Source: an uncultured Bacteroidales bacterium (GTDB lineage Bacteria > Bacteroidota > Bacteroidia > Bacteroidales > Paludibacteraceae). From it: DNA of 64,000 nucleotides. The notes under the pieces were generated by a model. The model was not told the DNA's origin. It saw nothing but the letters and a program-made list of their open reading frames with translations, and did not search any database. The DNA lies in the NCBI GenBank assembly GCA_944321155.1, contig CALUKG010000003.1, forward strand, positions 1-64,000, in the 5' to 3' direction. Numbering within the stretch: position 1 is the first letter of the stretch; the number at the start of each line of letters is the position of its first letter. The position numbers and the translations under genes are program-made. Of the stretch, positions 30,489 through 63,054 are shown piece by piece.

Positions 30489-30519
30489 AATGCTTCTTTT
30501 TTGATTTAGTGTCCACTTA

Positions 30520-33500
30520 TTATAAACCTAAACGCAATGTAAAGGTGAACTGTTTCGGAGTTGGCATAGCCACACCACCTGTATTAAAGAACTCAGGATC
30601 TTGCCCATTCAATTTCTTGTCAGCATACAGCAAGCAGAGGTTTGTTGCTTGCAACTTCAGAGCAAGTGATGTTACTTTATATCCCTCAAACCATTTTTTC
30701 GGGAAATCATAACTTAATGATACATCTTTCAAACGGATGAAATCACCTTTTGCAACGCGCTCCGTAGAGAAGTTATACGCGTTATACAAACGTTGCAACT
30801 CAGAAGAAGTATATTTCTGAATCAATCGTTTATCCGGAATTGTTGGAATATTAGTATAAGCTTCATCACCTTGAGTCACCCAACGGTTTGCAAATTCTCT
30901 TGGAAGTGCGGTCATATCATCATATGAATATGAGAATACTGGATCAAGACGTATAACATTACCAAATGAATAAGTAAGGAATACATTCAAAGAGAATCCT
31001 TTGTAAGAGAATGTATTACCGAATCCACCAGTAATTATCGGATCGGTCGGTCCTTCATATACCAAAATATCTTCCAAACCTGTACGTTGCTGGAAATTGA
31101 TTTCAGACAATGGCAATTCACTTCCATCAGTTTTCTTGAATGTTGGCAAACCTTCTTCATTCAGTCCTGCAAAGTTCAAGGAGAACAAAGAACGTACTGG
31201 ATAACCTTCCAAAGCATATCCGCCACCATATACCATGTTAATCATATTGGCATGTGACTCCAAAGCCGTAATTTTATTTTGAGCATCAGAGAAGGTCAAG
31301 TCTGTTGTCCAAGTAAAATCTTTTGTTTTAATATTTACAGTAGACAAAGTTCCTTCAACACCATATGAACTCATGTTAGCAACGTTAGCATATTTCAAAA
31401 CCACACCACCAACACCTGGGGTTGTAGTAATACCAATCAAGTCAAAGTTTTCACGGGTATAGAAGTCGGCTGAAAGGTTAATTCTGTTATTCAAGAAGCC
31501 CAAATCCCAACCGATGTTGAACTCGTATTTCTTTTCATATGTCAATTCGCTGTTTTCCAAATCACCCAACACGATACCAGATTCTTGGTCACCTGCATTA
31601 GGTCTCCACGGAGTATCAGCAATATAAACGGGCAAAGAATTAGTTACGAAAGCAGGACCACGGTCAGCAGTCAAAGAATATGAAGCACGTAATGTTGAGT
31701 GTGTCCATGCATCTTCAAATGTACTTCTCCACCAGTTTTCTTCATGCATATTCCATGCTGCAGAAACGTTCCATGTCGGCAACCAACGAGCTTTACGGGA
31801 ACGACCCAACTTATTAGAACCTTCGTAACGGAATGTTCCATTCAAAGTATACCTTCTATTGTATGAATAGGTAGCCATTGCAAAGAAAGCCAAGTTACGT
31901 GAATAAGTCCATGAATCATAATAGTATTCAGCACCTTCTTCTTTCAATTGCTTAAAGATTTGAGGATCCCAGAAAGGAGTACTACCATTGTCATATTGCA
32001 TACCCCAACCACGGAACCATGTTTCCTGACGGTCGATAGAATTCAATTCAGCACCGGCAAACAAGTTAAGCAAATGCTTTTCGCCATCAAATGCAGTATT
32101 ATAAGCTGCAGTTGCACGCAAGTCCAAACTACTCATAGAGTTAGTTGTTACGGTGTAAATACCGGTTCCTTCTGGAAGCACACATACTGGCAGTGCAGAA
32201 GGATCATCCGGATCTCTATACAGATATTTATTAGCATCACGAATAGTAGCATCTTCAGGATAAATACCTGCACGATATGCATTAGCCTGGTTAGAAGCCT
32301 CATGTATATGATGCTCTTGTTTAGCGTTTTGGTAACGATAAGAAACCAATCCGTTAATTTCAAGTCCCTTAACTGGCTTATACTTCAATTCGCCTTGGAA
32401 TTTAACATCCATAATATTGATGTCAATATAGTTGCGTTGCAATTCATTGAAAATATTAAAGTCGGTATAATTACGACGATAATATTCTTCAGGATCCAGT
32501 GCACGTGAAGTATTGATAGCATAGCTATAAGGGTTAATATCAAAGTCACGGGTTACGGCACCATTCACAACATCGAGTGTACTATTGGTTGTACCAGGAG
32601 CTGTTTGTTTACGATAGGAAGCATTGGACAGCAATGCAAAAGTCAAATTTTTGAGAATGTCATATGAACCGTTAAAATTAGCCGTATAACGCTGTACATC
32701 ATTCGAAAGCGTCCATCCTGGATCATACATGGCAGACATAGAAGCATAGTAACGAGCTTTGTCCGTACCAGCAGACATACTTACTGCATGATTCTGCATC
32801 AGATTGTCTTGGAACAACAAGTCAAACCAATCCGTATTACGAAGTTCCGCATCTTGTAAATACATGTTACGCAATGCCGGTGTATTTCCTAAAAGATATC
32901 CATTGGCAGCATACGGATAGTCTTTAGCTTTTTCGGGGTCATAAGTATTCATCAACTCATACATCTTACCATATACACCATAATTGTTAGCAGCATTTAA
33001 AGTTGTAAATTCCAACAATCCTTTGTCTGCCATCTGTTTATTGATAGACATTTGTTCTTGAGAGTTGGAGATATTAAAGTTACGATAATTCGGTTTGAGA
33101 CGATAGGTTAATTCTCCCGTATAACTCAAACGGCTTACACCTTGTTTTCCTTTTTTTGTGGTTACAACAATTACACCCGCCATAGCGCGAGCACCATAAA
33201 TAGAAGTGGCTGAACCGTCTTTCAAAATCTGGAAACTTTCGATATCATCGGCATTCAAGCCTGCAATAGCAGAAGCAATAAGCGTTGCAGCATCACCAGA
33301 AGAAAGGTCATCACTAGAAACTTCAACAGCGTCTTCCAAAACGACACCATCAACCACCCAAAGCGGTTTAGAGCTACCATAAATTGATGTAGCGCCACGC
33401 ACACGGATCTTAGGAGCAGTACCAAACGTACCTGACACACTTTGTACAGACACACCAGCAGCACGACCTTCCAACGAACGGCTGACATCAGCCACACCAT

Positions 33501-33879
33501 CCAACTTAGTCTTGTCTGCGTCAATTTGTGTTGTTGCACCGGTCGTCATACGTTTATCCAACACCTGCATACCCGTAACAACGACTTCTTGGATTTCTTG
33601 CGTTTCCGCTTTCAAGGTTACTTTCATGTGAGCTTTGATTGGAAGCTCCTGAACTTGATAACCTACGTAAGAAAACCTAATGGTTTTTGCATCACTCGGA
33701 ACCGATAATTCAAAATGACCGTCAAAGTCAGTGATGGTTCCCAACGTGGTTCCAGGGACGGTTACGTTTACGCCTATGGCAGGCCCCATGTCATCGTAAA
33801 CAGTACCTTCCACTTTTGTCTGAGCGTATAGTACCATTGCTATACAGCTTAAAACAAGAGAGAGAATAACTTTTTTCAT
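30520..33879 (-). CDS. SusC/RagA-family TonB-dependent transporter
   Basis: 1119-aa outer-membrane importer energised by TonB. Signal peptide (1-19, ending VLYAQ), carboxypeptidase-like regulatory domain (about 21-95: GPAIGVNVTVPGTTLGTITD), plug domain (about 98-240, with VVVTGMQVLDKR, the SusC pattern VRGATSIYGSSKPLWVVDGV, and SIYGARAMAGVIVVTTKKG), then a 22-strand barrel ending in FTFTLRLGL. First gene of a five-gene operon with SusD, metallopeptidase, DUF4302 and a T9SS-type protein. That set resembles known oligopeptide-importing SusCD loci of Bacteroides rather than glycan loci, as no glycoside hydrolase is present. Confidence 0.94.
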   Translation of the reverse strand: MKKVILSLVLSCIAMVLYAQTKVEGTVYDDMGPAIGVNVTVPGTTLGTITDFDGHFELSVPSDAKTIRFSYVGYQVQELPIKAHMKVTLKAETQEIQEVVVTGMQVLDKRMTTGATTQIDADKTKLDGVADVSRSLEGRAAGVSVQSVSGTFGTAPKIRVRGATSIYGSSKPLWVVDGVVLEDAVEVSSDDLSSGDAATLIASAIAGLNADDIESFQILKDGSATSIYGARAMAGVIVVTTKKGKQGVSRLSYTGELTYRLKPNYRNFNISNSQEQMSINKQMADKGLLEFTTLNAANNYGVYGKMYELMNTYDPEKAKDYPYAANGYLLGNTPALRNMYLQDAELRNTDWFDLLFQDNLMQNHAVSMSAGTDKARYYASMSAMYDPGWTLSNDVQRYTANFNGSYDILKNLTFALLSNASYRKQTAPGTTNSTLDVVNGAVTRDFDINPYSYAINTSRALDPEEYYRRNYTDFNIFNELQRNYIDINIMDVKFQGELKYKPVKGLEINGLVSYRYQNAKQEHHIHEASNQANAYRAGIYPEDATIRDANKYLYRDPDDPSALPVCVLPEGTGIYTVTTNSMSSLDLRATAAYNTAFDGEKHLLNLFAGAELNSIDRQETWFRGWGMQYDNGSTPFWDPQIFKQLKEEGAEYYYDSWTYSRNLAFFAMATYSYNRRYTLNGTFRYEGSNKLGRSRKARWLPTWNVSAAWNMHEENWWRSTFEDAWTHSTLRASYSLTADRGPAFVTNSLPVYIADTPWRPNAGDQESGIVLGDLENSELTYEKKYEFNIGWDLGFLNNRINLSADFYTRENFDLIGITTTPGVGGVVLKYANVANMSSYGVEGTLSTVNIKTKDFTWTTDLTFSDAQNKITALESHANMINMVYGGGYALEGYPVRSLFSLNFAGLNEEGLPTFKKTDGSELPLSEINFQQRTGLEDILVYEGPTDPIITGGFGNTFSYKGFSLNVFLTYSFGNVIRLDPVFSYSYDDMTALPREFANRWVTQGDEAYTNIPTIPDKRLIQKYTSSELQRLYNAYNFSTERVAKGDFIRLKDVSLSYDFPKKWFEGYKVTSLALKLQATNLCLLYADKKLNGQDPEFFNTGGVAMPTPKQFTFTLRLGL

Positions 33880-42808: not shown

Positions 42809-44398
42809 TTATATCGCCATCACACGCCGCTCAAATTCTTCCCGTGAGCAAGCTGCTGCATTACGCATTTTGGTACGATAATTATAAATAGTAGTTACTG
42901 AATATCGCAAGAATTGTGCAATTTTAGCGCTATCTGTTATACCTAAACGCACCAATGCATAAATACGCAATTCTGGAGAAAGCAGCTCACCTTTCGGGTA
43001 AATGCGAGACTCCGGTAGCAATAGCTCATTAAATTTCTGCACGAAATCAGGATAAAGTCGCAAAAAAGACTCATCAAAATTAGAATAAAAGAGTTTTAAT
43101 TCTCGATTAATAAAATCAGAAGACTTGATATTTTTCAATAATTCCTGCTCTTTGCCTTGAGTAGCCAAACGATTTAATGAACGCCGATAATCATCCATCT
43201 TCTCTATATATAATGAACACTGATTCATATAACGGCTTATATATTCTTCTTTGATATGATTACTCTCCGCAAGCGTAATATTTGCATATTTCAATTCTCC
43301 ATTTGCCAACTTCAACTTCTTTCTTATGGCGGACAATTTCCTGTTTTGATAAATAACAAACGCAAAAGTAATCAGCAGTATCACCAATAAGGCAGATACA
43401 GAATAAGTAAAACGCATAGACGTCTCTCTTTGCTTATTCAACTGATGCTGATAGGCATTTTCAATAATAGAATATAATGGCAACAATTCCATTGTACGCA
43501 CACGGGCATTCCCTAAATAAGCATCTTCAGTAGAACATTTTATATAATTATGGGCACGCTCCAAATCACCATCACGAAACAAGAGTTCTGCTAGTTTTCT
43601 CAATGCAGCATATTCACGTACTGCGGAACGCAAATCACACTGTGCAGACAAGGCATAATAGGTTTTAGCCAATGTCCATTGTTCTGTTTGAGCATAAATC
43701 TCTGCCATACTATAATAAACAATGGCCATTCCTCGCTCTTGCACATCATTTTCTTCACAATAATTTTCCAACAAATTGAGCGCCTCAACATAGAAATGAT
43801 TATAAATATACTGATCTGTTTTAACAATTACATATGTAAACGAAGTTTCATCATTAACAGACATGATAGAATCTCTATAAGAATCAACTAATTGCAAATA
43901 ACGCGCTGAATAATTCCCATCATAAGAATAATCTGCCAACAGACCATAATAAGTTCTATTCAAATGATAATAATATGGTTTCAAATAATCCGGCAAGCTT
44001 TTTTTTTCTGTTTTCCTCAACATATCGCCCGCCTCCTTATACATTCCCACAAGATATAGGCATTCAACCATATCCAAACTGGCATGAATTCTCCATTCTT
44101 CATTTCTCATATTATTTGCCATATCCAAACGCTGACGGACACATGCCATTTGTGCGCTCACATTATAACTCTTATTAGCTTCAACCAATTTTCCTAAAAG
44201 CGAAAATCGCTGTTCAGGATTATTTATTTGAGCCAATTGCTTTTGTAAAGCATCAATCTCCATTTCTTTAGTCTGAGCATAAATTTTCCGATGTGAAATG
44301 GCTTGATCCAGAGAATCCAAAGTCTCTGTTAAGGATGGTATTTCAGCTGATAGAGAGAAAGCAAAGAAAAAGAGAAACACGCAAAAAACATTTTTCAT
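42809..44398 (-). CDS. SusR-like membrane-bound PUL regulator
   Basis: 529-aa sensor-regulator of the SusR/DUF6377 type. Order: signal peptide or first membrane segment (1-18); a helical TPR-like periplasmic region (about 25-320); a transmembrane helix (SVSALLVILLITFAFVIYQN, about 333-352); a cytoplasmic coiled coil; and a C-terminal helix-turn-helix (GITDSAKIAQFLRYSVTTIY, about 486-505). It should sense glucan oligosaccharide in the periplasm and activate the divergent operon directly. Start at 44398: the frame also opens at a GTG at 44437, but that codon is inside the -7 box. In Bacteroides thetaiotaomicron SusR controls starch use, and a related protein is thought to serve the dextran locus. 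Confidence 0.85.
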   Translation of the reverse strand: MKNVFCVFLFFFAFSLSAEIPSLTETLDSLDQAISHRKIYAQTKEMEIDALQKQLAQINNPEQRFSLLGKLVEANKSYNVSAQMACVRQRLDMANNMRNEEWRIHASLDMVECLYLVGMYKEAGDMLRKTEKKSLPDYLKPYYYHLNRTYYGLLADYSYDGNYSARYLQLVDSYRDSIMSVNDETSFTYVIVKTDQYIYNHFYVEALNLLENYCEENDVQERGMAIVYYSMAEIYAQTEQWTLAKTYYALSAQCDLRSAVREYAALRKLAELLFRDGDLERAHNYIKCSTEDAYLGNARVRTMELLPLYSIIENAYQHQLNKQRETSMRFTYSVSALLVILLITFAFVIYQNRKLSAIRKKLKLANGELKYANITLAESNHIKEEYISRYMNQCSLYIEKMDDYRRSLNRLATQGKEQELLKNIKSSDFINRELKLFYSNFDESFLRLYPDFVQKFNELLLPESRIYPKGELLSPELRIYALVRLGITDSAKIAQFLRYSVTTIYNYRTKMRNAAACSREEFERRVMAI

Positions 44399-44436
44399 AT
44401 CATATAATTTAAAAATAGCAAAAACAAATACCTCCA

Positions 44437-44468
44437 CAAAAATAGAAATAAGAAATTAATTCGCCAAA
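44437..44468 (-). promoter_or_regulatory. Promoter of the SusR-like regulator
   Basis: Minus strand: TTTG (44468-44465), 20 bases, TATTTTTG (44444-44437). Transcription would begin near 44430, about 32 bases before the ATG at 44398. Confidence 0.78.
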
Positions 44469-44482
44469 AACACACCTCATAA

Positions 44483-44567
44483 CAACTACTTTAACAGGCA
44501 CAAACAAAAACATTAAATAGCTATAATACAGTATTATAATATAAATATACAACTACTTTTTAACTAC
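44483..44567. promoter_or_regulatory. Candidate regulator-binding repeats between SusR-like gene and PUL
   Basis: Two direct repeats, CAACTACTTTAAC (44483-44495) and CAACTACTTTTTAAC (44550-44564), lie just outside the -33 boxes of the two divergent promoters. The second is followed by another AACTAC (44562-44567), 11 bases after the first AACTAC, one helical turn. Between the repeats is a perfect palindrome TATAATAC-A-GTATTATA (44522-44538). Binding by the SusR-like protein is inferred. Confidence 0.45.
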
Positions 44568-44573
44568 ATCGTA

Positions 44574-44604
44574 TTGTTTTTAAATTTAGTCCGTTCTACT
44601 TTTG
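44574..44604 (+). promoter_or_regulatory. Promoter of the glucan PUL operon
   Basis: Plus strand: TTG (44574-44576), 20 bases, TACTTTTG (44597-44604). Transcription would begin near 44611, giving a leader of about 58 bases before the first gene. Confidence 0.8.
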
Positions 44605-44668
44605 CAACGTTCAAATGATTGACATAGACAACACTTAAAATCAACAAACTATCTAATTCCATTTTATT

Positions 44669-46021
44669 ATGAGAAACAAATTATTCATTTTAACTTTAGC
44701 AATCATTACTTGCATTTCTGTTGTATTAGCTGACAATTATCCTGCTCGTATGTATTTAATTGGTGATGGTGCACCACAAAACAATTGGGATTTAACAGCA
44801 ATTACTTCCATGGTCACCACCTCTCCAGGAGTATATACATGGACAGGAGAACTGAAAGACGGTCGAATGAAATTCATTCCATATCCATCGTATGAACCCA
44901 GTTATGGCCCTACCGCTGCCGATACAATAGAAACAGGAAAATCAGAATTAGCACAAGACATTGTTGCAGGCGAAAGTTATGACATGGAACTGCGTGTAGA
45001 TTATACAATGCCAGACAAATCATGCAACATAACTGCCGGGCGTTATAAATTAACATTGGATATAACTGGCGATACTCCACGTCTAACTGTAGAAGACGGA
45101 ACCGCATTGGCTGATAATCCAACAGCCCCTATTGCAAATCCAGGATATCTATATCCCATTGGAGATGCAACAGAAGCAGGTTGGGATCTAAGCAAGACAG
45201 TTCCTATAGCTGAAACTGAATTTAACTCCGGAATATATACTACATTAATAAAACTGAAAAGCGGTTCATTGAAATTCCTTCTTCGTAACGCTTACGAAAG
45301 AATGTATGGAGCGACCATTGCAGACCAACCGGTAAATGAAATGGGAGAATATACAGTTGAATACTCGGATGGCAGTTCAGACAAGAAGTTTAGGATTAAT
45401 TACCCATGTACTGTAAATTATAAGCTCACAATCAATCTGAACACAAATACAATGACCATTTACCCGGAAAAAATCTATATCATTGGTCCTGCAATGACAG
45501 GCATTGAGAATGATTGGAACTTTTTCGAGGACAAGACCATGCACTCAACAGAAACAGATGGTGTATATAGCTGGACAGGCGAATTATACAATGGTCAAAT
45601 GAAATTTTTCACAAGCAATGATTTCAGTTCCATCGCATATGGAGCAACAACTGCCGATGTTCCTCTTGCAGAAGGGACATTAGATATCAAACGGATTGCC
45701 GGTAGCGATGACGACTACAAATTCCTCGTTAACGCAGGTACATATACACTGACGCTCAATCTGTCCAACTCAAAATTAGACGTAACAAGCAATGCCACAG
45801 CAACAAACTTTACGGAAACCAACGGTCTAAATTGGTATATTTACGACAACTATATTACCTGTGACGGTGCTACACACATGGAACTATACGACCTAAATGG
45901 AGCAAAAATCGCTTCATCCAACAACCATGAAATCAATATCAACAATCTTCCCGGCAACATATATATTCTTGCCATTTACAATGGGGATATTCGTGAAATG
46001 CATAAGATTGTAGTTCGTTAA
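44669..46021 (+). CDS. Secreted SusE/F-like glycan-binding protein with T9SS-type tail (first)
   Basis: 450-aa exported protein and first gene of the PUL. A signal peptide without lipobox (1-21) is followed by three SusE/F-like beta modules, each opening with the pattern I-G-D-x-x-x-x-x-W: MYLIGDGAPQNNWDL (about 28), LYPIGDATEAGWDL (about 167) and IYIIGPAMTGIENDW (about 270). Each has a TGEL...MKF-type strand that in SusE and SusF carries sugar-binding aromatic residues. The last 60 residues are a type A sorting-like tail (MELYDLNGAKIAS, then LPGNIYILAIYNG). It probably holds alpha-glucan at the surface. Odd points: SusE/F proteins are normally lipoproteins downstream of susD; this one is upstream of susC and separated from it by a terminator-like hairpin. 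Confidence 0.8.
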   Translation: MRNKLFILTLAIITCISVVLADNYPARMYLIGDGAPQNNWDLTAITSMVTTSPGVYTWTGELKDGRMKFIPYPSYEPSYGPTAADTIETGKSELAQDIVAGESYDMELRVDYTMPDKSCNITAGRYKLTLDITGDTPRLTVEDGTALADNPTAPIANPGYLYPIGDATEAGWDLSKTVPIAETEFNSGIYTTLIKLKSGSLKFLLRNAYERMYGATIADQPVNEMGEYTVEYSDGSSDKKFRINYPCTVNYKLTINLNTNTMTIYPEKIYIIGPAMTGIENDWNFFEDKTMHSTETDGVYSWTGELYNGQMKFFTSNDFSSIAYGATTADVPLAEGTLDIKRIAGSDDDYKFLVNAGTYTLTLNLSNSKLDVTSNATATNFTETNGLNWYIYDNYITCDGATHMELYDLNGAKIASSNNHEININNLPGNIYILAIYNGDIREMHKIVVR

Positions 46022-46067: not shown

Positions 46068-46109
46068 ATATATCTAAAACCAGAACACAAACATCCATTA
46101 ATAATGAAC

Positions 46110-49097
46110 ATGAAGAAACAAACTCTTGAGAGGATTTTTTTATCCACCCTATTTGTTTTCTCCTCATTTATAATGTTTGCACAAAATGAAGTCAGAGGTA
46201 TTGTACTTGACAACAAACAAGAGCCTCTTATCGGTGTGAACATTATGGAGAAAAACACCACAAACGGAACAATTACGGATTTTGATGGGCATTTTATTCT
46301 GAACCTTACAACTCCATCTCCTATTTTAACAATCAGTTATGTAGGTTATACCACACAAGAAATTGAAGTAAACGGTCAAAAGGATATACAGATTGTATTA
46401 AAAGAAGACAACGAACAACTGGAAGAAGTTGTAGTCATCGGCTATGGTGTCCAGAAAAAAAGTGATTTGACAGGCGCTATCTCACAAGTATCTTCCAAAG
46501 ATCTAGACAAACAACCCTCTTCAAGCTTAGGAGCGGCCTTACAAGGACGTGCACCTGGCCTGCAAATCGTATCAAGCGGTGCTCCAGGAAGTAATGTCAG
46601 CATGAAAGTGCGCGGTATTGGCTCCATCAACAACAGTGATCCTCTTTTGGTTATTGATGGAGTGCCAACAGACGTTCCACTAAATATGATCAACATGGAC
46701 GATGTAGCCAGCGTTGATGTATTGAAAGACGCTTCTGCTACCGCAATATATGGTTCACGCGGAGCTTATGGCGTAATTATCATCACAACGAAAAAAGGAA
46801 AAACCGAAAGCAGCCGTCTCAATGTAAAAGCATCATATGGTTTTGACCAATTACAGAGGACATTACCATTATTGAATGCTACACAATTTGCATCACTCCA
46901 CAACGAAATGATGAAAGCTGGCGGACAACCTCAAAACCCAGCATTTGTTGATCCGACTGCATTGGGTGTCGGAACAGATTGGATGAGTGAACTTTTCCAG
47001 TACGCACCCACCCAAAACTACTCCATCAATTATTCAGGAGGAACAAAGAAGACATCCTATTACGTATCTGGAGCATACTATGATCAGCAAGGTATTATAA
47101 AAACTACCGATTATAAACGTATCACATTACAATTTAATTCAGATACAGAATTATACAAATGGTTAAAGTTCGGACATAATCTGTCTTTAAACCATGACAT
47201 CAAATCGCAAGGTGAATACAATATACAAAACACCATGAAAGCCTTGCCGACACAAGCCATCAAAAACGAAGATGGTAGCTGGGCAGGTCCTGTAGGATTA
47301 GCCATGTATGTTGGTGATATAGCCAATCCCATTGGAAAAATGATGGAAAACACCAGCTCCACAAAAGGCTACAATCTTTTAGGTAACATTTACACAGAAA
47401 TCAAACCTTGGGAATGGCTCGTATTCAAAAGTACATTCGGTATACAGACTTTATTCTGGGACAGCAAATCGTGGACACCTGCTTATGATTGGGAGCCAAT
47501 AGAACAACCCGAATCACAAGCATCTCGCCAATATAATAAAAGCATCACATGGCTTTGGGACAACACATTAACCTTCAACAAGACATTTGCCGACAAACAT
47601 AGTGTAACAGCCATGATAGGTTCTTCCGCACAAGCCAACACTTATGAATATATGAGCGGTACTATTCAAGGCTTTATCAGTGAAACTGCCCAAGAATTAT
47701 CTAATGGTACATTAGAGCCAACCCTATCCGGCAATGGAAGTGACTGGGCTTTATTATCTTTCATGGCACGTGCCAACTATACCTATGACAACCGATATTT
47801 ATTGACGGCCACTATACGTGCAGACGGTTCATCACGGTTCAGCAAAGCAAACCGTTGGGGCTATTTTCCATCCGTATCTGCCGCATGGCGTGTAAGCGAA
47901 GAAAATTTCTTCAATAAGACTTATGGCTTGGGCGATTTGAAAATCAGAGCCGGATATGGTGTTACAGGTAACCAAGCGAGCGTCGGCAATTATGCTTATG
48001 CATCAGCATTACAAACCGTACAGTACAATTTCAATGGTAATCAAGTTATGGGACTTGCTCCCTGGGTAATGCCAAACCCTAATGTACGCTGGGAAGAAGT
48101 AGAACAAATCAACGTTGGAGTCGATGCAGGATTATTAGGTAGCCGTTTAATCGTAAACCTTGACGGTTACATCAAAAATACCAATGACATGTTAGTGCCA
48201 ATGTCAGTGCCCATTTCATCTGGTTACTCAGATGAGAACGTACCACAAATCAATGCCGGACTTATGCGCAATATGGGCGCTGAATTATCCATTACATCAG
48301 TTAATTTCACAGGAGAATTCACTTGGACGACAACCGCAAACGTGGCATATAACCACAACCGTCTGCTGAGTCTAAACAGTGATGTTCCTATGTATTTTGA
48401 CTGCAACATACACATGGTCGGCTATCCTATCAGTTCTTTTTACGGCTATGTAACAGACGGAATCTTCCAAAACCAAGAAGAAGTGGAACAACATGCCATT
48501 CAAACTGTCGGCAGTGACGAATATACCAGTACACAACCAGGCGATATTCGTTTCAAAGATTTAAACAACGATGGCGTAATTAATGAAGATGACCGTACTG
48601 TACTGGGTAGCCCTACCCCATCTTGGACATTTTCTATGAATAACCAATTTTCCTGGAAAGGTTTCGATTTGGAAATATATTTACAAGGTGTGGCTGGTAA
48701 TAAGATTTATAACGGTAACCGTGCCGCGTTGGAAGCAATGAGCGTTGCACAAAACCAGATGATTACCGTATTGGACCGCTGGCGCGGTGAAGGCACCAGC
48801 AATACAATGCCTCGTGCCGTATTCAGCGACCCCAACAAAAACAACAGAACTTCTGACCGTTTCCTGGAAGACGGTTCATATCTACGCTTGAAAAACCTGT
48901 CTCTAGGCTATACATTACCGCAATCATTGACTCAAAAAGCAGCTATGCAGCAAGTAAGAGTATCATTCTCTGCACAAAATGTATTCACACTTACCCGCTA
49001 TACAGGTCTCGATCCAGAAGTAGGAGGTTCAGGTGTTGACAACAATGTATACCCAATCACCCGTAATTTCACATTTGGCTTAAACGTAACATTCTAA
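46110..49097 (+). CDS. SusC-family TonB-dependent glucan transporter
   Basis: About 995-aa outer-membrane importer. ATG at 46110 (MKKQTLERIF) or 46104 places a signal peptide at the N-terminus; an earlier in-frame ATG at 46047 lies within the hairpin and is rejected. Order: signal peptide ending MFAQ; carboxypeptidase-like domain (about 25-100, with GVNIMEKNTTNGTITD); plug (about 105-240, with EEVVVIGYGVQKKSDLTGAI and ATAIYGSRGAYGVIIITTKKG); beta barrel ending FTFGLNVTF. It should import alpha-glucan oligosaccharides with the SusD gene 16 bases downstream. Confidence 0.94.
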   Translation: MKKQTLERIFLSTLFVFSSFIMFAQNEVRGIVLDNKQEPLIGVNIMEKNTTNGTITDFDGHFILNLTTPSPILTISYVGYTTQEIEVNGQKDIQIVLKEDNEQLEEVVVIGYGVQKKSDLTGAISQVSSKDLDKQPSSSLGAALQGRAPGLQIVSSGAPGSNVSMKVRGIGSINNSDPLLVIDGVPTDVPLNMINMDDVASVDVLKDASATAIYGSRGAYGVIIITTKKGKTESSRLNVKASYGFDQLQRTLPLLNATQFASLHNEMMKAGGQPQNPAFVDPTALGVGTDWMSELFQYAPTQNYSINYSGGTKKTSYYVSGAYYDQQGIIKTTDYKRITLQFNSDTELYKWLKFGHNLSLNHDIKSQGEYNIQNTMKALPTQAIKNEDGSWAGPVGLAMYVGDIANPIGKMMENTSSTKGYNLLGNIYTEIKPWEWLVFKSTFGIQTLFWDSKSWTPAYDWEPIEQPESQASRQYNKSITWLWDNTLTFNKTFADKHSVTAMIGSSAQANTYEYMSGTIQGFISETAQELSNGTLEPTLSGNGSDWALLSFMARANYTYDNRYLLTATIRADGSSRFSKANRWGYFPSVSAAWRVSEENFFNKTYGLGDLKIRAGYGVTGNQASVGNYAYASALQTVQYNFNGNQVMGLAPWVMPNPNVRWEEVEQINVGVDAGLLGSRLIVNLDGYIKNTNDMLVPMSVPISSGYSDENVPQINAGLMRNMGAELSITSVNFTGEFTWTTTANVAYNHNRLLSLNSDVPMYFDCNIHMVGYPISSFYGYVTDGIFQNQEEVEQHAIQTVGSDEYTSTQPGDIRFKDLNNDGVINEDDRTVLGSPTPSWTFSMNNQFSWKGFDLEIYLQGVAGNKIYNGNRAALEAMSVAQNQMITVLDRWRGEGTSNTMPRAVFSDPNKNNRTSDRFLEDGSYLRLKNLSLGYTLPQSLTQKAAMQQVRVSFSAQNVFTLTRYTGLDPEVGGSGVDNNVYPITRNFTFGLNVTF

Positions 49098-49113: not shown

Positions 49114-50604
49114 ATGAAAAAAATATCAATCATAATATTCACGTTGTCTTGCATGCTTTTAAGTTCCTGTGAAGACTTTCTGAATAGAGAGCCATGGGAT
49201 TCTGTAGACACATCTCAAAGTTTTAAAACTGTAGACGACGCAATTGCAGCCGTTAATGCCGCTTATCAGCCTCTACAATGGGCGAAGCTTTATAATATGC
49301 GCATATGGACATTGGATATCATTGCCGGCAATAGTGTAGTAGGGGCTGGAGGTGGAACTGATGGTATAGAAACCGTTGATTTAGCCAACTTTATTGCAAC
49401 TGCCGACAATTTTGCAGCACTTGATTTATGGCGTGGTCCTTCACCCGGTATTTTGCGTTGTAATTTCGTCTTGGAAAAAGTACCAGGTATGACCATAGAC
49501 GAGAGCATCAAAAACCGCTGTCTAGGAGAAGCCTATTTTTTGCGTGCTCACTACTACTTCATATTGGTAAGATTGTTTGGAGGAGTACCATTAATTACAA
49601 CACCTCAAACATCTGAAAGCGATTTGCTAGTAGAACGTGCCCCTGTTGATTCCATTTACGCACTTATCACATCAGACTTGAAGCATGCCATCGATTTATT
49701 ACCTACAAAATCAGAGTATTCTACAACCGATTTAGGACGTGCCACACAAGAAGCTGCCATGGCTGAACTTGCCCGTGTGTATCTTACTTACCAAACAAGT
49801 ACGGAAAAATATGAAGAAGTTGTACGATTATGTGATGAAATAGGGAAACTCGGCTATCAATTAGCTTCTGATTATTCAGACAATTTTGATCCTGCTTTAA
49901 AAAATGGCGTAGAATCCATCTTTGAAGTACAATATTACGGAAAAACTAGCTACGATTTCTGGAGCAACGAAAACCAGTGTTCTTGGATAAGTACATTTAT
50001 GGGCCCACGTAATTCCAACATGGCTGCCGGATGCTATGGTTGGAATCAGCCAACTTCTGAATTTGTCCAACAATATGAAGAAGGCGATTTACGTAAAGAC
50101 AAAACCATTTTTTACATGGGATGCCCCACTTTTGATGGTATGCAATATAGTTCATCCTATTCAACAACAGGTTACAATGTCCGCAAATTTTTGCTGACCA
50201 AAGCCCAATCGCCTGACTACAACACAAGCGATGCCAACTGGGTTGTAACCCGGTATGCAGATGTGCTTCTTATGAAAGCAGAAGCCCTTAATGAATTAGG
50301 ACGTACCACATTGGCAGAAGAACCTCTTTATGAAGTCCGTAAACGGGCAGGATTAACTAACCGTTCGGACATAGAAGGACTTACAATGAATGAAATGCGT
50401 GAGAAAATCATACATGAACGCCGCATTGAACTTGCTTTTGAAGGACATCGTTGGTTCGACTTAATCCGATATAAAGACAATTATGCACTTAACTTCCTGC
50501 ATTCTATCGGGAAGACTTCTGCAACAACCAAACATTTATTGTTCCCCATCCCACAACAGGAAATAGAAGCGAACAGTAAATTAACACAAAACCCAGGATA
50601 TTAA
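49114..50604 (+). CDS. SusD-family glucan-binding lipoprotein
   Basis: 496-aa lipoprotein (lipobox LSSC, then EDFLNREPWDS). Family segments: AYFLRAHYYFILVRLFGGVP, ATQEAAMAELARVYLTY, RYADVLLMKAEALNELG, and ERRIELAFEGHRWFDLIRY near the end. It forms the lid on SusC and binds the substrate. Standard length, 16 bases after susC and 18 before the SusE/F lipoprotein. Confidence 0.94.
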   Translation: MKKISIIIFTLSCMLLSSCEDFLNREPWDSVDTSQSFKTVDDAIAAVNAAYQPLQWAKLYNMRIWTLDIIAGNSVVGAGGGTDGIETVDLANFIATADNFAALDLWRGPSPGILRCNFVLEKVPGMTIDESIKNRCLGEAYFLRAHYYFILVRLFGGVPLITTPQTSESDLLVERAPVDSIYALITSDLKHAIDLLPTKSEYSTTDLGRATQEAAMAELARVYLTYQTSTEKYEEVVRLCDEIGKLGYQLASDYSDNFDPALKNGVESIFEVQYYGKTSYDFWSNENQCSWISTFMGPRNSNMAAGCYGWNQPTSEFVQQYEEGDLRKDKTIFYMGCPTFDGMQYSSSYSTTGYNVRKFLLTKAQSPDYNTSDANWVVTRYADVLLMKAEALNELGRTTLAEEPLYEVRKRAGLTNRSDIEGLTMNEMREKIIHERRIELAFEGHRWFDLIRYKDNYALNFLHSIGKTSATTKHLLFPIPQQEIEANSKLTQNPGY

Positions 50605-50622: not shown

Positions 50623-52062
50623 ATGAGACATATAAAATGCATATTACTTTCAGCAACTCTTGGTTTATTGGGGTTATCCAGCTGTCAAGAAGAAATAATT
50701 ACCAATAAAGGGGAAACCCCATTACGGCTCATCGCTTCTTCAGACAGCGTGAGATGTGACCAGCGTGCAGATGACCAGGAAGCATTGCAATTAACATGGA
50801 CCAGCGGTACCAACCAGGGTACAAGTGCTGCCATCTACTATTATTTTGAGATGGATTTGAAAGGAAACAATTTCGAAGGAGGAATCAAATACAATATAGG
50901 TAAAACGGAATCACGTGTATTATCCTTTACCAATAAATCACTTACAGATACTCTTCTTTATTATTTCAAGAATATTCCATTGGAAGAATACAGTGAATTT
51001 GAGGCTCGCGTTACTGCTACAGTTGCGGCAGAGAATGTTCCTGTTCAGGTTTCCCCAGTTATCACTTTACGCATCGCTCCATACAAATATCGTGTGTTGA
51101 ACGTATATCTGATTGGTGATGCAACACCTAACGGATGGGACAACCAACTTGCAACGCCAATGATACCCGATTATGAAAATCCAGAATTGTTTACATGGGA
51201 AGGAATGCTAAACCAAGGTGAATTAAAGTTCAACACTCAACTTGGTTCGTGGCTACCATGTTATGTCCGTGACGAAACCGATTTCACCAAAATGCACTAC
51301 CGTGAACAAGAAAGTGACTACCCCGACAACAAATGGCAAATAGAAACCATCGGTACTTATCATATAAGAATCAACATTGACTCTCTGACCATAAGTATCA
51401 CCAATTTAGATGGTGAAGTGCCTTTTAATAAATTATATTTAGTTGGCAGTGCAGCTGGTGAAGCTTTAGCCATGCAACAAGACAGCCATGATCCATTCAT
51501 TTTTACTTATGACGGAACACTTAATGCCGGTACTTTCCTAGTATCGAGCACACAAAATTCGGAAGGCTGTGCCGGATATCAACCTAATCAACAAGCAGGT
51601 ATGGGATCTTCAACCATCATTGCATTGGAAAATATTGGAGATGCAACTTTCACATGGAACCTATCTGCAGCCAATAAATATAGTTTACATCTCGATTTGC
51701 GCAATATGCGAATGGATATAAGCGGATATTCACCATATGAACATATATACATGATCGGCGACGCCACACCTGGCGGATGGAGTTGGGACAATGTAACCGA
51801 AATGAGCAAGAATCCGAATGACCCAAATGAATTCGTCTACGAAGGTCCTCTCTCTGAAGGAGAAATTAAATTTCCATTAGAAATAGATCATAGCTGGGGA
51901 GGTGATTTCATACTTGCACCTACTGCAAATTGCACACCAAGCGAAAACGGTGATTATGTAATCGGGAATCAACCTGACAACAAATGGAAAATTAGTGAAG
52001 CCGGCAATTACCGTATCGTGATAAACGTATTCAATGAAACCATTTCGTTCATCAAACAATAA
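50623..52062 (+). CDS. SusE/SusF-type surface glycan-binding lipoprotein
   Basis: 479-aa lipoprotein (lipobox LSSC, then QEEIITNKGE). An N-terminal Ig-like SusE domain (about 30-150) is followed by three starch-binding-type modules at about 157 (VYLIGDATPNGWDN), 270 (LYLVGSAAGEALAM) and 375 (IYMIGDATPGGWSWDN). The middle module lacks the Trp of the GW motif, so its binding may be weak. It sits in the classical susE position after susD and should be exposed on the surface. It lacks a T9SS tail, unlike the two other SusE/F-like proteins of this locus. Confidence 0.85.
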   Translation: MRHIKCILLSATLGLLGLSSCQEEIITNKGETPLRLIASSDSVRCDQRADDQEALQLTWTSGTNQGTSAAIYYYFEMDLKGNNFEGGIKYNIGKTESRVLSFTNKSLTDTLLYYFKNIPLEEYSEFEARVTATVAAENVPVQVSPVITLRIAPYKYRVLNVYLIGDATPNGWDNQLATPMIPDYENPELFTWEGMLNQGELKFNTQLGSWLPCYVRDETDFTKMHYREQESDYPDNKWQIETIGTYHIRINIDSLTISITNLDGEVPFNKLYLVGSAAGEALAMQQDSHDPFIFTYDGTLNAGTFLVSSTQNSEGCAGYQPNQQAGMGSSTIIALENIGDATFTWNLSAANKYSLHLDLRNMRMDISGYSPYEHIYMIGDATPGGWSWDNVTEMSKNPNDPNEFVYEGPLSEGEIKFPLEIDHSWGGDFILAPTANCTPSENGDYVIGNQPDNKWKISEAGNYRIVINVFNETISFIKQ

Positions 52063-52075
52063 CTAACAACACATT

Positions 52076-53845
52076 ATGAAAAAAGTCATATTATCATATT
52101 TTTGTGCCGCATTTATGATATCCATGTCGGCATGCAATACATTCAATCCCATAAATGACCCCATCACTTATGGCGATGGATATATGGATGTTCAGCTCAA
52201 CACGGATAAGGCCCGTTATATTCCCGGTGAGGCAGTGAACATCACATTGAACAAACCCGTAGATGGAGCAGAAAACGTTATGATACGTTACCGCCATCTA
52301 GGAAAGACCATAAAAGAAGAACCGTTTAGCAATTGTTCCTGGACATGGCAACCTCCAACTGAAGATTATAAAGGATATTTGATTGATCTTTACAGCATAG
52401 TAGACGGAAAAGAAATAATACATGGTAGTATTGCCGTTGATGTCTCATCTGATGCAGCACGTTTTCCACGCAATGGTTTCCTTTCTGCCTACGGAAAAAT
52501 GTCTGACAGCGAAATTGAAGCTATTATGGCAGACCTTAACCGCCACCACATTAACTATGTACAATATCAAGACTGGCATTACAAACACCATAAACCATTG
52601 GCAGGAACACCATCCTCACCAATGAGCGTTTGGACTGATATTATCAATCGTGATTGCTATCTCAGCACGGTCAAAGGCTACATTGAGACTTCACACAAAT
52701 ATGGAATGAAATCCTTATTTTATAATTTGGCATATGGTGCATTGGACGATGCAGCTGAAGATGGAGTAAAAGAAGAATGGTATCTATTTAAAGACAAAAA
52801 TCATGCTTCAAAAGATTATCATGCATTAAGTTCTCCATTCAAAAGCAGTATCTATTTAGTAAATCCAGCCAATGAAGAATGGATCGACTACATATCATCA
52901 CAAAATGATGATGTTTATGCCGTATTTGATTTTGACGGTTACCAAATTGACCAGTTAGGTTGGCGTGGGGATTTATATGATTATTACGGCAATATCGTAT
53001 ATCTAGACCAGACATTCAAAAACTTCATTGAAAAAATGAAAGAAGCACAACCATCCAAATCTCTGGTAATGAATGCTGTTGGTCAATATGGGCAGGAATG
53101 GCAGATTTCAAAAGCTCCTGTTGATTTCCTATATACCGAAGTATGGGATCATAATGACGAAAATGGATTCACCATTTTTTCAAATATAATTACCAACAAT
53201 GACAATTGGTCTTCTGGGAAAGAAACAGTATTGGCGGCATACCTCAACTATGAACTTGGCCGCAAAGGACGTGGATATTTCAATACTCCCGGTATCCTTA
53301 TGGGTAGTGCAGCTGCATTCGCGTGGGGAGGAAGTATTCTGCAATTGGGTGAACATATGCTCTGCAACGAATATTTCCCCAACAACAATTTAAGTATGAA
53401 AGGTGAATTGAAAACCGCTCTTGTACACTATTATGATTTTCTGACTGCGTACGAAAATCTGTTACGGGAAGATGGAGAATGGTATGGTGTAGATATTACC
53501 TCTGAAGACAACCAATGCACATTTAATCAATGGCCACCACAAAAGCAACAAATCGCCACAGTAGGCAAACGATTCGCAAACAAAGATGTCATACACCTAC
53601 TAAGCTATAGAAATGCTACACATTTAGACTGGTGTGATACAGAAGGCAACCAAGGAGAACCTGATTTGTTGGAAAATCTGGCTATCAGCTTCAACGTCAA
53701 AGCAGAACCTAAAGCAGTCTGGATAGCAACTCCTGATTATCAAGACTGTGTTGCCATCCATTTGGATTACCAATATGAAAATGGGAAAATCAATTGTACT
53801 ATCCCGTCACTGAAATATTGGAGTATGATTGTAGTTGAATATTAA
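52076..53845 (+). CDS. GH66 endo-dextranase-like lipoprotein
   Basis: 589-aa lipoprotein (lipobox MSAC, then NTFNPINDP). An N-terminal Ig-like domain (about 35-125) precedes a (beta/alpha)8 barrel of glycoside hydrolase family 66, as shown by NGFLSAYGKMSDSEI, INYVQYQDWHYKHH, and the active-site stretch FDGYQIDQLG. The nucleophile is most likely Asp292, and the acid/base Glu355 in DFLYTEVWD; both segments align with those of the Streptococcus mutans dextranase. GH66 enzymes cut alpha-1,6-glucan internally or make cycloisomaltooligosaccharides; no family insertion typical of the cyclising enzymes was noted, so an endo-dextranase is preferred. Lipid anchoring fits a surface enzyme producing oligosaccharides for SusCD. 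Confidence 0.88.
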   Translation: MKKVILSYFCAAFMISMSACNTFNPINDPITYGDGYMDVQLNTDKARYIPGEAVNITLNKPVDGAENVMIRYRHLGKTIKEEPFSNCSWTWQPPTEDYKGYLIDLYSIVDGKEIIHGSIAVDVSSDAARFPRNGFLSAYGKMSDSEIEAIMADLNRHHINYVQYQDWHYKHHKPLAGTPSSPMSVWTDIINRDCYLSTVKGYIETSHKYGMKSLFYNLAYGALDDAAEDGVKEEWYLFKDKNHASKDYHALSSPFKSSIYLVNPANEEWIDYISSQNDDVYAVFDFDGYQIDQLGWRGDLYDYYGNIVYLDQTFKNFIEKMKEAQPSKSLVMNAVGQYGQEWQISKAPVDFLYTEVWDHNDENGFTIFSNIITNNDNWSSGKETVLAAYLNYELGRKGRGYFNTPGILMGSAAAFAWGGSILQLGEHMLCNEYFPNNNLSMKGELKTALVHYYDFLTAYENLLREDGEWYGVDITSEDNQCTFNQWPPQKQQIATVGKRFANKDVIHLLSYRNATHLDWCDTEGNQGEPDLLENLAISFNVKAEPKAVWIATPDYQDCVAIHLDYQYENGKINCTIPSLKYWSMIVVEY

Positions 53846-53864
53846 TACCTTAATATATTATTCT

Positions 53865-56432
53865 ATGAAAAAACTATTTATCATATTGTCATTATTAAGC
53901 TGTTTTATCCATTCCGTCTATAGTGAAAACAATCCTATAGCAGCCCCTGAAGCTATTGTAATTTCGGGAAATATGCGTTTTACCATATTAACCCCAGAAA
54001 TGATTCGTATAGAATGGAGTGAAACACAACAATTCGAAGATCGTGCTTCTTTCACGGTGCTAAATCGTCGCTTGCCAGTACCACCTTTTACAAAAGAAGA
54101 ACGTGACGGATTTTTATATATAAAAACAGAAAAACTTTCTTTACAATACCGTATAGGCAGTTTTCCTGGAACATTTAACCCTGCAAGTTCAGAAAACCTC
54201 AAAATAACATTTGAGATGGATGGTCGTACACAGACATGGTATCCCTGGAAACCCGATAATTTAAATTTAAAAGGAACCATGCGTACATTGGACAACGCAA
54301 ACGGGACAAACAAATTATCAGAAATGGAAAATGGACTTCTCTCACGTTCTGGCTGGGCAGTAATAGATGAAACAGGAGAACGTCCAGACGGCAGTATAAG
54401 CCTAATGTTCGAACCAAGGGAAAATGGAGTAGATTGGGTCGGAGAACGTCAAGACAAAACTGCTATGGACTGGTATTTTTTAGGTTACGGGCATGACTAT
54501 AAAAAAGCGTTATCAGACTTTATTAAAATAGCTGGCCGCATCCCCATGCCACCCATGTACGCATTCGGATATTGGTATTCAAAATATGAAGAGTATTCAG
54601 AACAAGATTTCAAGGATTTAGTAGGCGAAATACAAGACCATGACATTCCTCTCGATGTAATGGTTGTCGATATGGACTGGCACTATTCCGGTAGCAGTAA
54701 TGATGGAGGACGTGGCGGATGGACTGGATGGAGTTGGAATAAGCGTTTATTTCCCGACCCGGAAGGATTTCTGAACTGGCTTCATGACAATCATTTAAAA
54801 GCCACACTCAATCTCCATCCTGCAGATGGAATCGCTCCTGATGAAGATAACTTTACAGCATTAGCCAATGAACTAGGATTACCCACCAATCAAACTATAC
54901 CATGGCGATTGGAGAATGAAGAATTCTATAAAGCATTTTTCAAACACATTATACGTCCACATGAAAACATTGGCGTTGATTTCTGGTGGTTAGATTGGCA
55001 ACAATGGCTATTGGCCAATGATGTAGAAAAATTAGGTAACACTTTTTGGCTAAACCATGTGTTTTTCAATGATAAGAAACAACAGGAAAACGGTCGCCCC
55101 ATTATTTTCCACCGCTGGGGAGGATTAGGCAATCATCGTTATCAGGTTGGCTTTTCTGGGGATGCACATGCAAATTTTGAGACCCTTGCCTTTGAGCCCT
55201 ATTTTACCGCTACAGCTTCAAATGTTGGTTATGGCTATTGGAGTCATGACATCGGCGGACATTTCCAAAATGGCGGCAATGATGCAGAACTTTTCCTTAG
55301 ATGGATTCAATATGGAGTCTTTTCCCCTATCCTCCGCACACATAGCACAAAAGACGCCTCGATTGAACGAAGAATCTGGAAATATGACAATTTCACACTT
55401 ATGCGTGATGCCATAGAACTCAGGTATGCATTAGCGCCTTATATTTATACACAGGCTCGTACAGCTTATGACACAGGTATTTCAATATGTCGCCCACTCT
55501 ATTACGAATGGCCAGAAGAAAACGAAGCCTACAAGCACAACGACGAATATATGTTTGGTGATAACATATTAGCAGCGCCAATAGTAGAACGTTCCAACAA
55601 CAATGGCATTAGCCATAAAACCATTTGGCTACCAAAAGGGAATTGGTATGAGGTAAATAGTGGCGATATCCTGGAAGGAAACAAAAGTTATACTCGGACT
55701 TTCACCCAGGCAGATATCCCCCATTATTACAAAGAAGGTGCAATTATTCCAATGTATCCCAAACTATCTCACCTAAAAAGCCGTCCAGATAAACTTATTT
55801 TGCAATTTGCTCCCGGACAAGAAGGCGAGTTTATGTATTATGAAGATGAAAACGACAATGACAATTATCAAAATGGCCTTTATACATTCACTAAAATAAC
55901 CCAAAACCGTAATGAAAAAGAAGGAACCTTCACCATATACCCACGTGAAGGTAATTTCAATGGCATGCCCACAAACAGAAGTTACGAGTTACATATATTA
56001 GCCGCAACATTCCCACAATCAGTTGAAGTGAACCACATTCCATATCAAATGGGCAATGAAGGGAATGGAACTTGGAATTATGACAGCGAAATGCAAATAA
56101 TAAAACTCTATATTCCCTCAACTTCATGTGATGAAACCATCGAAATTAACATAATATTTTCAGAAGAAAGTGCAGTACAAACGACAAAAGAAGACAAAAA
56201 CGCTTTCATCCACTATATTCAAAACGAAAAAAAACTATGTGTCAATACAGACCAGATTTGCCATCGTATAAAACTGTATTTACATGACATTACAGGAAAA
56301 ATAATTTTAGAGCAAGACGAGAAAAACTCGATGGGATTTTACGTAAATATTCCCAACAGTACACCTAATGGAGTCTATATTGTCAAAATGGAATACGACG
56401 GCCATCAACAAACACAAAGAATAATCATATAA
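53865..56432 (+). CDS. GH31 alpha-glucosidase-like enzyme with T9SS-type tail (WLDW subfamily)
   Basis: 855-aa exported GH31 enzyme. Start at 53865 (MKKLFIILSLLSCF) gives a signal peptide; a longer frame from 53835 overlaps the GH66 stop and is rejected. The barrel shows PPMYAFGYWYSKYEEYSEQ, VMVVDMDWHYSG, a nucleophile Asp377 in FWWLDWQQW, and an acid/base Asp433 in VGFSGDAHANF, followed by WSHDIGGHF and SPILRTHST. The WLDW version differs from the W-x-D-M-N-E of classical alpha-glucosidases, so this is a separate GH31 subgroup. The last 80 residues are a sorting-type tail (LYLHDITGKIILEQ, then NGVYIVKMEYDG). In dextran loci the GH31 member releases glucose from isomaltooligosaccharides; exact specificity is not readable. 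Confidence 0.88.
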   Translation: MKKLFIILSLLSCFIHSVYSENNPIAAPEAIVISGNMRFTILTPEMIRIEWSETQQFEDRASFTVLNRRLPVPPFTKEERDGFLYIKTEKLSLQYRIGSFPGTFNPASSENLKITFEMDGRTQTWYPWKPDNLNLKGTMRTLDNANGTNKLSEMENGLLSRSGWAVIDETGERPDGSISLMFEPRENGVDWVGERQDKTAMDWYFLGYGHDYKKALSDFIKIAGRIPMPPMYAFGYWYSKYEEYSEQDFKDLVGEIQDHDIPLDVMVVDMDWHYSGSSNDGGRGGWTGWSWNKRLFPDPEGFLNWLHDNHLKATLNLHPADGIAPDEDNFTALANELGLPTNQTIPWRLENEEFYKAFFKHIIRPHENIGVDFWWLDWQQWLLANDVEKLGNTFWLNHVFFNDKKQQENGRPIIFHRWGGLGNHRYQVGFSGDAHANFETLAFEPYFTATASNVGYGYWSHDIGGHFQNGGNDAELFLRWIQYGVFSPILRTHSTKDASIERRIWKYDNFTLMRDAIELRYALAPYIYTQARTAYDTGISICRPLYYEWPEENEAYKHNDEYMFGDNILAAPIVERSNNNGISHKTIWLPKGNWYEVNSGDILEGNKSYTRTFTQADIPHYYKEGAIIPMYPKLSHLKSRPDKLILQFAPGQEGEFMYYEDENDNDNYQNGLYTFTKITQNRNEKEGTFTIYPREGNFNGMPTNRSYELHILAATFPQSVEVNHIPYQMGNEGNGTWNYDSEMQIIKLYIPSTSCDETIEINIIFSEESAVQTTKEDKNAFIHYIQNEKKLCVNTDQICHRIKLYLHDITGKIILEQDEKNSMGFYVNIPNSTPNGVYIVKMEYDGHQQTQRIII

Positions 56433-56443
56433 AAAGTTATATC

Positions 56444-57769: not shown

Positions 57770-57786
57770 CAACAAAGATTGTGAAT

Positions 57787-60864: not shown

Positions 60865-60876
60865 CCAATAAAATAA

Positions 60877-63054
<2,178 letters not shown>

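Follow-up and report, generated by a model that had tools for sequence, protein, structure and literature searches.

The window, i.e. the whole stretch of 64,000 nucleotides that was analysed, belongs to an uncultured Bacteroidales bacterium of the Paludibacteraceae (contig CALUKG010000003.1) and contains a SusR family regulator gene in divergent orientation to a polysaccharide utilisation locus (PUL). The regulator is encoded on the minus strand (42809-44398). Based on family models and fold comparison, it consists of a periplasmic TPR-like part, a transmembrane helix, the cytoplasmic DUF6377 and a C-terminal LuxR/GerE-type HTH. The protein matches PF19904 (DUF6377) with 277.8 bits (cut-off 36.7, E=1e-82) and the NCBIfam model NF058541 (SusR_regulator) with 541 bits (cut-off 480). 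Its C-terminal 161 residues were modelled with a pLDDT of 88.8, and the model aligns best with LuxR/GerE/NarL-type HTHs (best Z 7.0; rmsd 1.9-2.6 for 62-67 aligned residues). This Z does not reach 8, yet nearly all rows for the C-terminal part are of the LuxR/GerE-type HTH fold. Among named genomes, Paludibacter and Bacteroides contain the regulator's nearest relatives. In other members, SusR is established as a membrane protein that activates sus operons (PMC3878776, PMC6874557). A search of the literature on DUF6377 and on the Bacteroides host factor returned nothing useful.

The target operon is located on the plus strand. Its first gene encodes a SusF/SusE-like surface glycan-binding protein (44669-46021; PF16411), followed by a SusC-like TonB-dependent transporter (46104-49097; TIGR04056), a SusD-like protein (49114-50604; PF07980, PF14322), a SusE-like protein (50623-52062; PF14292, PF16411) and a GH66 enzyme of the dextranase family (52076-53845; PF13199, E=3e-187). 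The remaining PUL genes (53835-63054) were assigned by Pfam to GH31, SusF/E-like, GH31 and GH97. GH66 together with GH31 points to a substrate of the dextran type, and from these enzyme families we infer that an alpha-1,6-glucan is both the substrate and the inducer of the PUL. Both GH31 enzymes (53835-56432 and 57781-60864) bear T9SS C-terminal sorting domains, the second with an additional SusE/F-type binding module, and the first protein of the operon has a weak sorting-domain match at its end. A second SusC/SusD-like pair, on the minus strand at 28794-33879, represents a separate locus.

The gap between the regulator and the PUL contains an exact 11-mer, ACAACTACTTT, at 44482-44492 and again at 44549-44559, with a start-to-start distance of 67 bp. 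The two near-identical elements 67 bases apart that were named in the preliminary description are present, and when a two-base insertion is allowed, CAACTACTTT(TT)AAC fits 44483-44495 and 44550-44564. The second copy also contains AACTAC twice at an 11-base period (44551 and 44562), as had been described. To estimate the role of chance, the gap (44402-44668, 267 bp) was subjected to dinucleotide shuffling. The P of finding some exact 11-mer repeat is 0.075; taken alone, the repeat is weak evidence, because it arises in 7.5% of the shuffles, and this figure is what favours a chance repeat in AT-rich DNA. Against chance, an exact 11-mer repeat at an offset of 67 or 77 has a P of 0.0008, and three AACTAC have a P of 0.0016. 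Testing these two offsets is legitimate, since both had already been published for SusR-type motifs in the text description of PMC3878776.

Two half-sites were delimited on the plus strand as direct repeats. The distal half-site AACTACTTTAACA (44484-44496; core ACTACTTT at 44485-44492) fits the phylum-wide half-site given below; within the window it is a weak match with 7.0 bits, versus 17.0 bits for the proximal half-site AACTACTTTTTAA (44551-44563), which starts at +67 and whose ACTACTTTTT is invariant in the three nearest relatives. The sub-repeat AACTAC (44562-44567) is located 11 bp past the proximal core. Among 46 operators, seven have an ACTAC-like sequence (at least four of five bases) 11 bp past the proximal core, with other offsets mostly giving 0-1, and six have one 11 bp ahead of the distal core; five operators have it at +14 from the proximal core, where it arises from ACTACTAC. 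In these predicted operators the 11-base period is a recurrent feature, though most members are without it.

Conservation was studied nearby and across the Bacteroidota. The footprint was based on two genomes from a single further genus of the family, in which the regulators are 55-57% identical and the neighbouring gene is similar in length and direction; a genome of the same genus, with a regulator 98% identical, was too similar and was left out. The gap has diverged in these relatives, yet the distal ACTACTTT, the proximal ACTACTTTTT, the ACTAC at +11, TTGTT and TACTTTTGC are invariant. For the wider comparison, SusR-family loci were drawn from the GTDB family of the window, from 80 named genome contigs and from genomes of Bacteroides, Dysgonomonas and Flavobacteriaceae, and were clustered at 80-85% regulator identity; even so, they are not phylogenetically independent. 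Shuffles were made in 2-mer blocks, except for the dinucleotide shuffles used for the 267-bp gap. A motif-free offset scan of the gaps beside 117 non-redundant regulators gave 67 as the commonest best offset (12 loci), with 65 in six loci and 88 in five, where about one is expected for each. Offset peaks at 22 and 44 were rejected as operators since they stem from tandem arrays (e.g. L052, L056, L074).

A half-site model trained solely on the window and the two relatives nearest to it was applied to 112 held-out loci, with offsets from 25 to 130. Best pairs were found at 65-67 bp in 13 loci (2.5 expected, binomial P 1e-6) and at 75-78 bp in another 13 (3.4 expected, binomial P 3e-5). The discovery pairs were used to refine the model, which was then frozen; in an independent set of 63 loci, it placed 10 of the 14 best pairs at 65-67 or 75-78 bp, compared to none in shuffles. 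In a genome-wide search of 120 family genomes, nine of 31 ACTACWTT..ACTACWTTT pairs were 66-67 bp and seven 75-77 bp apart. The phylum-wide half-site is (A/T)CTAC(T/A)TTTTT, with its copies in direct repeat 65-67 or 75-78 bp apart, and operators of this kind occur in Paludibacter, Dysgonomonas, Flavobacterium and others, beyond Bacteroides. A comparison of the gap in related genomes had been proposed in the preliminary description; half-sites and spacing do recur beside SusR-family genes across the phylum. The repeats are kept in diverged relatives and throughout the phylum, which refutes the chance reading and leaves it a negligible probability.

The half-sites were also combined with the spacer element and the -7 box, both described below, into a whole model of four elements (distal site, spacer element, proximal site, -7 box), which was evaluated by leave-one-out on 181 non-redundant loci. 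Scores were above the 97.5th percentile of shuffled loci in 110 loci, 98 of which have the operator in the gap adjoining the regulator, and above every shuffle in 102. The window reached 49.5, versus a null maximum of 10.3, and ranked eighth among the 181 loci. About 40% of the SusR-family loci are without a recognisable operator under this model. Offsets were limited to three windows and training relatives with less than 85% regulator identity were included; the whole-model score therefore measures the frequency of the layout, and the independent proof comes from the 112 held-out and the 63 further loci. Based on this comparison, the repeats are very probably the two half-sites of an operator from which the adjacent membrane-bound SusR-type regulator would activate the PUL. 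The earlier suggestion of a binding site for the SusR-like regulator is strongly supported in this way. For sites of this kind, neither binding nor footprint nor mutation data were found.

Several further pairs were observed. The Flavobacterium operators (L204, L189, L175, L153, L159, L165) and L184 have 65 or 75 bp rather than 67 or 77 bp, and their -7 box, 43-44 bp away, is mostly without the final G (TAnnTTTA). In Geofilum rubicundum (L139) a strong ACTACTTTTT pair with a distance of 89 bp is located on the 3' side of the regulator; this value, about one helical turn above 77, suggests a rarer third spacing class. ACTACWTT pairs of exactly 66 bp were found in three genomes without a listed DUF6377 match (G004:C20:28992, G080:C26:47091 and G117:C14:112167; L112, L113, L098), and might reflect chance, a lost regulator or another regulator with the same layout. 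Operator-like pairs of 67 and 65 bp at G069:C213:24614-24689 and G069:C105:9795-9868 (L122) could be distant regulon members, the five SusR-family genes of that genome being located elsewhere. In the window's own genome, distant regulon members were searched by pattern only. The pattern ACTACNTTT...ACTACNTTT had no match there, because the distal site of the window has only three T, and the relaxed pattern ACTACWTT gave one site. The same genome contains a second SusR-family gene (G000:C26:4587-5291, L093), divergent from a long gene; the gap holds a weaker operator-like pair, CCACTTTTT twice at 66 bp, with a composite score of 20.4 versus the null maximum of 10.3.

The PUL promoter on the plus strand comprises a -33-like TATTG (44572-44576), a match to the consensus only, of which the TTG (44574-44576) is invariant in relatives, and the -7 box TACTTTTG (44597-44604). 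In most operators of the discovery and independent sets, the -7 box TAnnTTTG starts 44-45 bp after the first base of the proximal ACTAC; in the window the distance is 45 bp (44552 to 44597). The proximal site is thereby placed directly beside the -33 region of the PUL promoter. A putative regulator promoter on the minus strand (44437-44467), with the -7 box TATTTTTG at 44437-44444 and the -33 box TTTG at 44464-44467, was recognised by consensus match only. Sigma-70-type promoters in the gap showed no excess over shuffles, as expected for Bacteroidota promoters.

The half-site cores and the -7 box share TACTTTT, and in terms of score the -7 box is itself a weak half-site. The copies might thus be regarded as decoy or alternative -7-like promoter elements, given the resemblance of TACTTTTT to TAnnTTTG and to the actual -7 box TACTTTTG. 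This is very improbable: the half-sites are without the final G of the -7 box, the (A/T)C upstream is conserved in them, and neither the spacing of 65-67 and 75-78 bp nor the linkage to SusR genes would be explained.

In the preliminary description the elements were placed so as to flank divergent promoters, each next to a -33 box. Promoter-like matches in both directions were found, but the copies lie between the promoters. The idea of one site per divergent promoter found no support, as the relatives keep the distance of both copies to one target promoter. In most relatives both copies are found past the 3' end of the regulator gene, with a co-directional target gene downstream. With regulator and target co-directional and the pair in the 3' gap, the conserved role would be activation of the target promoter and not of two divergent promoters. 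Two independent sites, the left copy for autoregulation of the regulator gene and the right copy for control of the PUL, would agree with the position of the left copy about 17 bp beyond the minus-strand -33/-7-like match. The 3' gap that holds both copies in most relatives is, however, far from the regulator's own promoter, and the copies keep their spacing and the orientation of the target gene, which renders such a division highly unlikely. From the comparison of relatives, both copies are predicted to serve a single promoter, that of the PUL. An extra effect on the regulator gene (secondary autoregulation) is possible in the window, because the minus-strand -33/-7 match lies only about 17 bp beyond the distal site.

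The spacer between the half-sites of the SusR operator contains a dyad element, TTAAATAGCTATAATACAGTATTATAA (44513-44539, plus strand; centre at about 44526), which is a putative IHF/HU-like DNA-bend site at a conserved distance from the distal site. When the 46 discovery spacers were aligned on the distal site, the best column reached 0.67 bits, versus a maximum of 0.35 in 1000 shuffles; spacer columns had played no part in choosing the aligned operator pairs. The dyad consensus is roughly TAA-N4-TTGATWATCAA-N4-TTA, with a correlation of 0.75 about index 42 in the pooled 63 operators. A spacer profile derived from either spacing class (65-67 or 75-78) locates the element in the other class, equally far from the distal site. 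In the independent set, the frozen spacer profile gave a mean of 5.6 at the expected place, versus -6.9 +/- 1.3 in shuffled spacers, and the expected place scores best of about 37 offsets in 41 of the 63 pooled operators. The element of the window scores 10.1 (shuffle P=0.0002, first of 37 offsets) with a model from which the window and its nearest relatives were excluded. Among the operators compared, the element is degenerate. Half of the IHF consensus, with eight of nine positions, was found in 14 loci in forward (offsets 29-30) and in nine loci in reverse orientation (offsets 41-42). The window spacer is a partial match to the IHF consensus WATCAANNNNTTR, which may not be the specificity of DNABII proteins of Bacteroidota. 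At least two DNABII genes, with strong matches, are present in the window's own genome.

Two other explanations of the spacer leave the SusR operator as such in place. The element could be the site of another dimeric transcription factor, e.g. a co-activator or catabolite regulator, by which two signals would be integrated. Dyad symmetry with 0.75 at the centre is expected of a dimeric factor, and the element stands in a fixed register to the distal SusR site; on the other hand, no candidate factor is linked to the loci, and the Crp-like (BT4338) palindrome TATGTTnTAnAACATA of Bacteroides is not enriched in the spacers (8.41 versus 8.52 in shuffles). A second factor is rated as unlikely, though it deserves serious consideration. 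Slightly lower still is the probability that the spacer is only intrinsically curved or flexible DNA with phased A/T tracts, which would aid bridging by SusR and need no second protein. The conserved columns are mostly A or T and about 11 bp apart (31, 42, 53), as such DNA would have them, but T37 T38 G39 and C45 A46 are sequence-specific, the enrichment of IHF halves on both strands exceeds composition effects, and composition-keeping shuffles fail to reproduce the element.

With a DNABII-type protein on the spacer, the layout, i.e. distal ACTACTTT, dyad about 42 bp on, proximal ACTACTTTTT at +67 and TAnnTTTG -7 box 45 bp later, can be combined into a mechanism. In the presence of the inducing glucan in the periplasm, SusR subunits would bind both half-sites via their LuxR/GerE-type HTHs. 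A bending protein of the HU/IHF (DNABII) type would bind the spacer dyad and fold the 67 or 77 bp into a hairpin. In the antiparallel arms, a two-fold axis perpendicular to the plane of the bend would relate the direct repeats to each other, an arrangement that would suit a two-fold symmetric dimer anchored in the membrane and bridging the half-sites. The SusR subunit on the proximal site would then contact RNA polymerase at the -33 region. In a hairpin centred on the dyad, the distal site is 36 bp and the proximal site 31 or 41 bp from the bend centre. At 10.5 bp per turn, 65-67 bp correspond to 6.2-6.4 turns and 75-78 bp to 7.1-7.4 turns; the classes therefore share a phase, with the sites not exactly on one face of relaxed DNA, and the insertion of one turn (67 to 77) would be tolerated because the phase is kept. 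We infer binding by SusR, bridging by the dimer, bending by DNABII and the polymerase contact of the proximal subunit from sequence comparison, and the bend step is given a probability close to, but not above, even. That SusR activators throughout the Bacteroidota use a compact HU/IHF-bent hairpin, in which facing repeats are clamped by a membrane-held dimer beside the promoter, is proposed tentatively, with the balance leaning somewhat against it. If true, the compact hairpin would represent an architecture of activation that has not been described before for a membrane transcription factor.

SusR is the founder of the field of polysaccharide utilisation loci, and the fact that the protein is large was earlier given as the reason for the 67 or 77 bp between its sites. 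The spacer element offers a possible answer to the question why the sites stand so far apart. With the phylum-wide layout, the way in which SusR finds and activates its promoters can be put to a direct test in laboratory Bacteroides, and the regulon of any SusR-family protein can be predicted; the layout also provides rules for designing promoters inducible by glycans.

Among known systems, DNA loops assisted by HU or IHF, e.g. the E. coli gal repressosome (GalR-HU-GalR) and IHF-dependent promoters, have a bend protein placed between two protein sites and depend on helical phase. The operator of the window likewise has two sites with a putative bend protein between them, and may also depend on helical phase. 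Unlike in the gal repressosome, the regulator here would be a membrane-anchored activator, the sites are direct repeats, the loop would be much shorter and the bend protein is putative.

SusR-type operators were predicted comparatively in Bacteroides by Ravcheev et al. in 2013, as direct repeats with 67 or 77 bp from centre to centre; in the text of that paper they are located upstream of SusC/D operons and linked to SusR-family regulators, and the long spacer is called non-conserved (PMC3878776). The regulator targets had been called poorly described in the preliminary description, which stands insofar as the prediction is comparative only, but the repeats themselves had been predicted in the text of that paper (PMC3878776). 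The window agrees with the operators of that text in its 67-bp direct repeat and in the conservation of the repeats in orthologous loci upstream of co-located sus genes. Beyond the text description (PMC3878776) go the conserved spacer dyad, the fixed distance of 44-45 bp to the -7 box, the sub-repeat at +11, the 65- and 75-bp forms and the genera outside Bacteroides. Relative to that text (PMC3878776) the spacer element is new, and as a predicted feature of a set that includes Bacteroides loci, it is a revision of the published non-conserved spacer. A further parallel is the dextran PUL48 of B. thetaiotaomicron, in which the gap between SusR-DX (BT3091) and the SusC gene suffices for dextran-responsive expression (PMC6874557). 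Both loci have a SusR-family regulator beside a dextran-type PUL. In PUL48 (BT3091, BT3090 promoter; PMC6874557) the regulator-susC gap holds the inducible promoter and regulator and SusC are co-directional, whereas the window has a divergent regulator and a SusF/E-like gene in first place.
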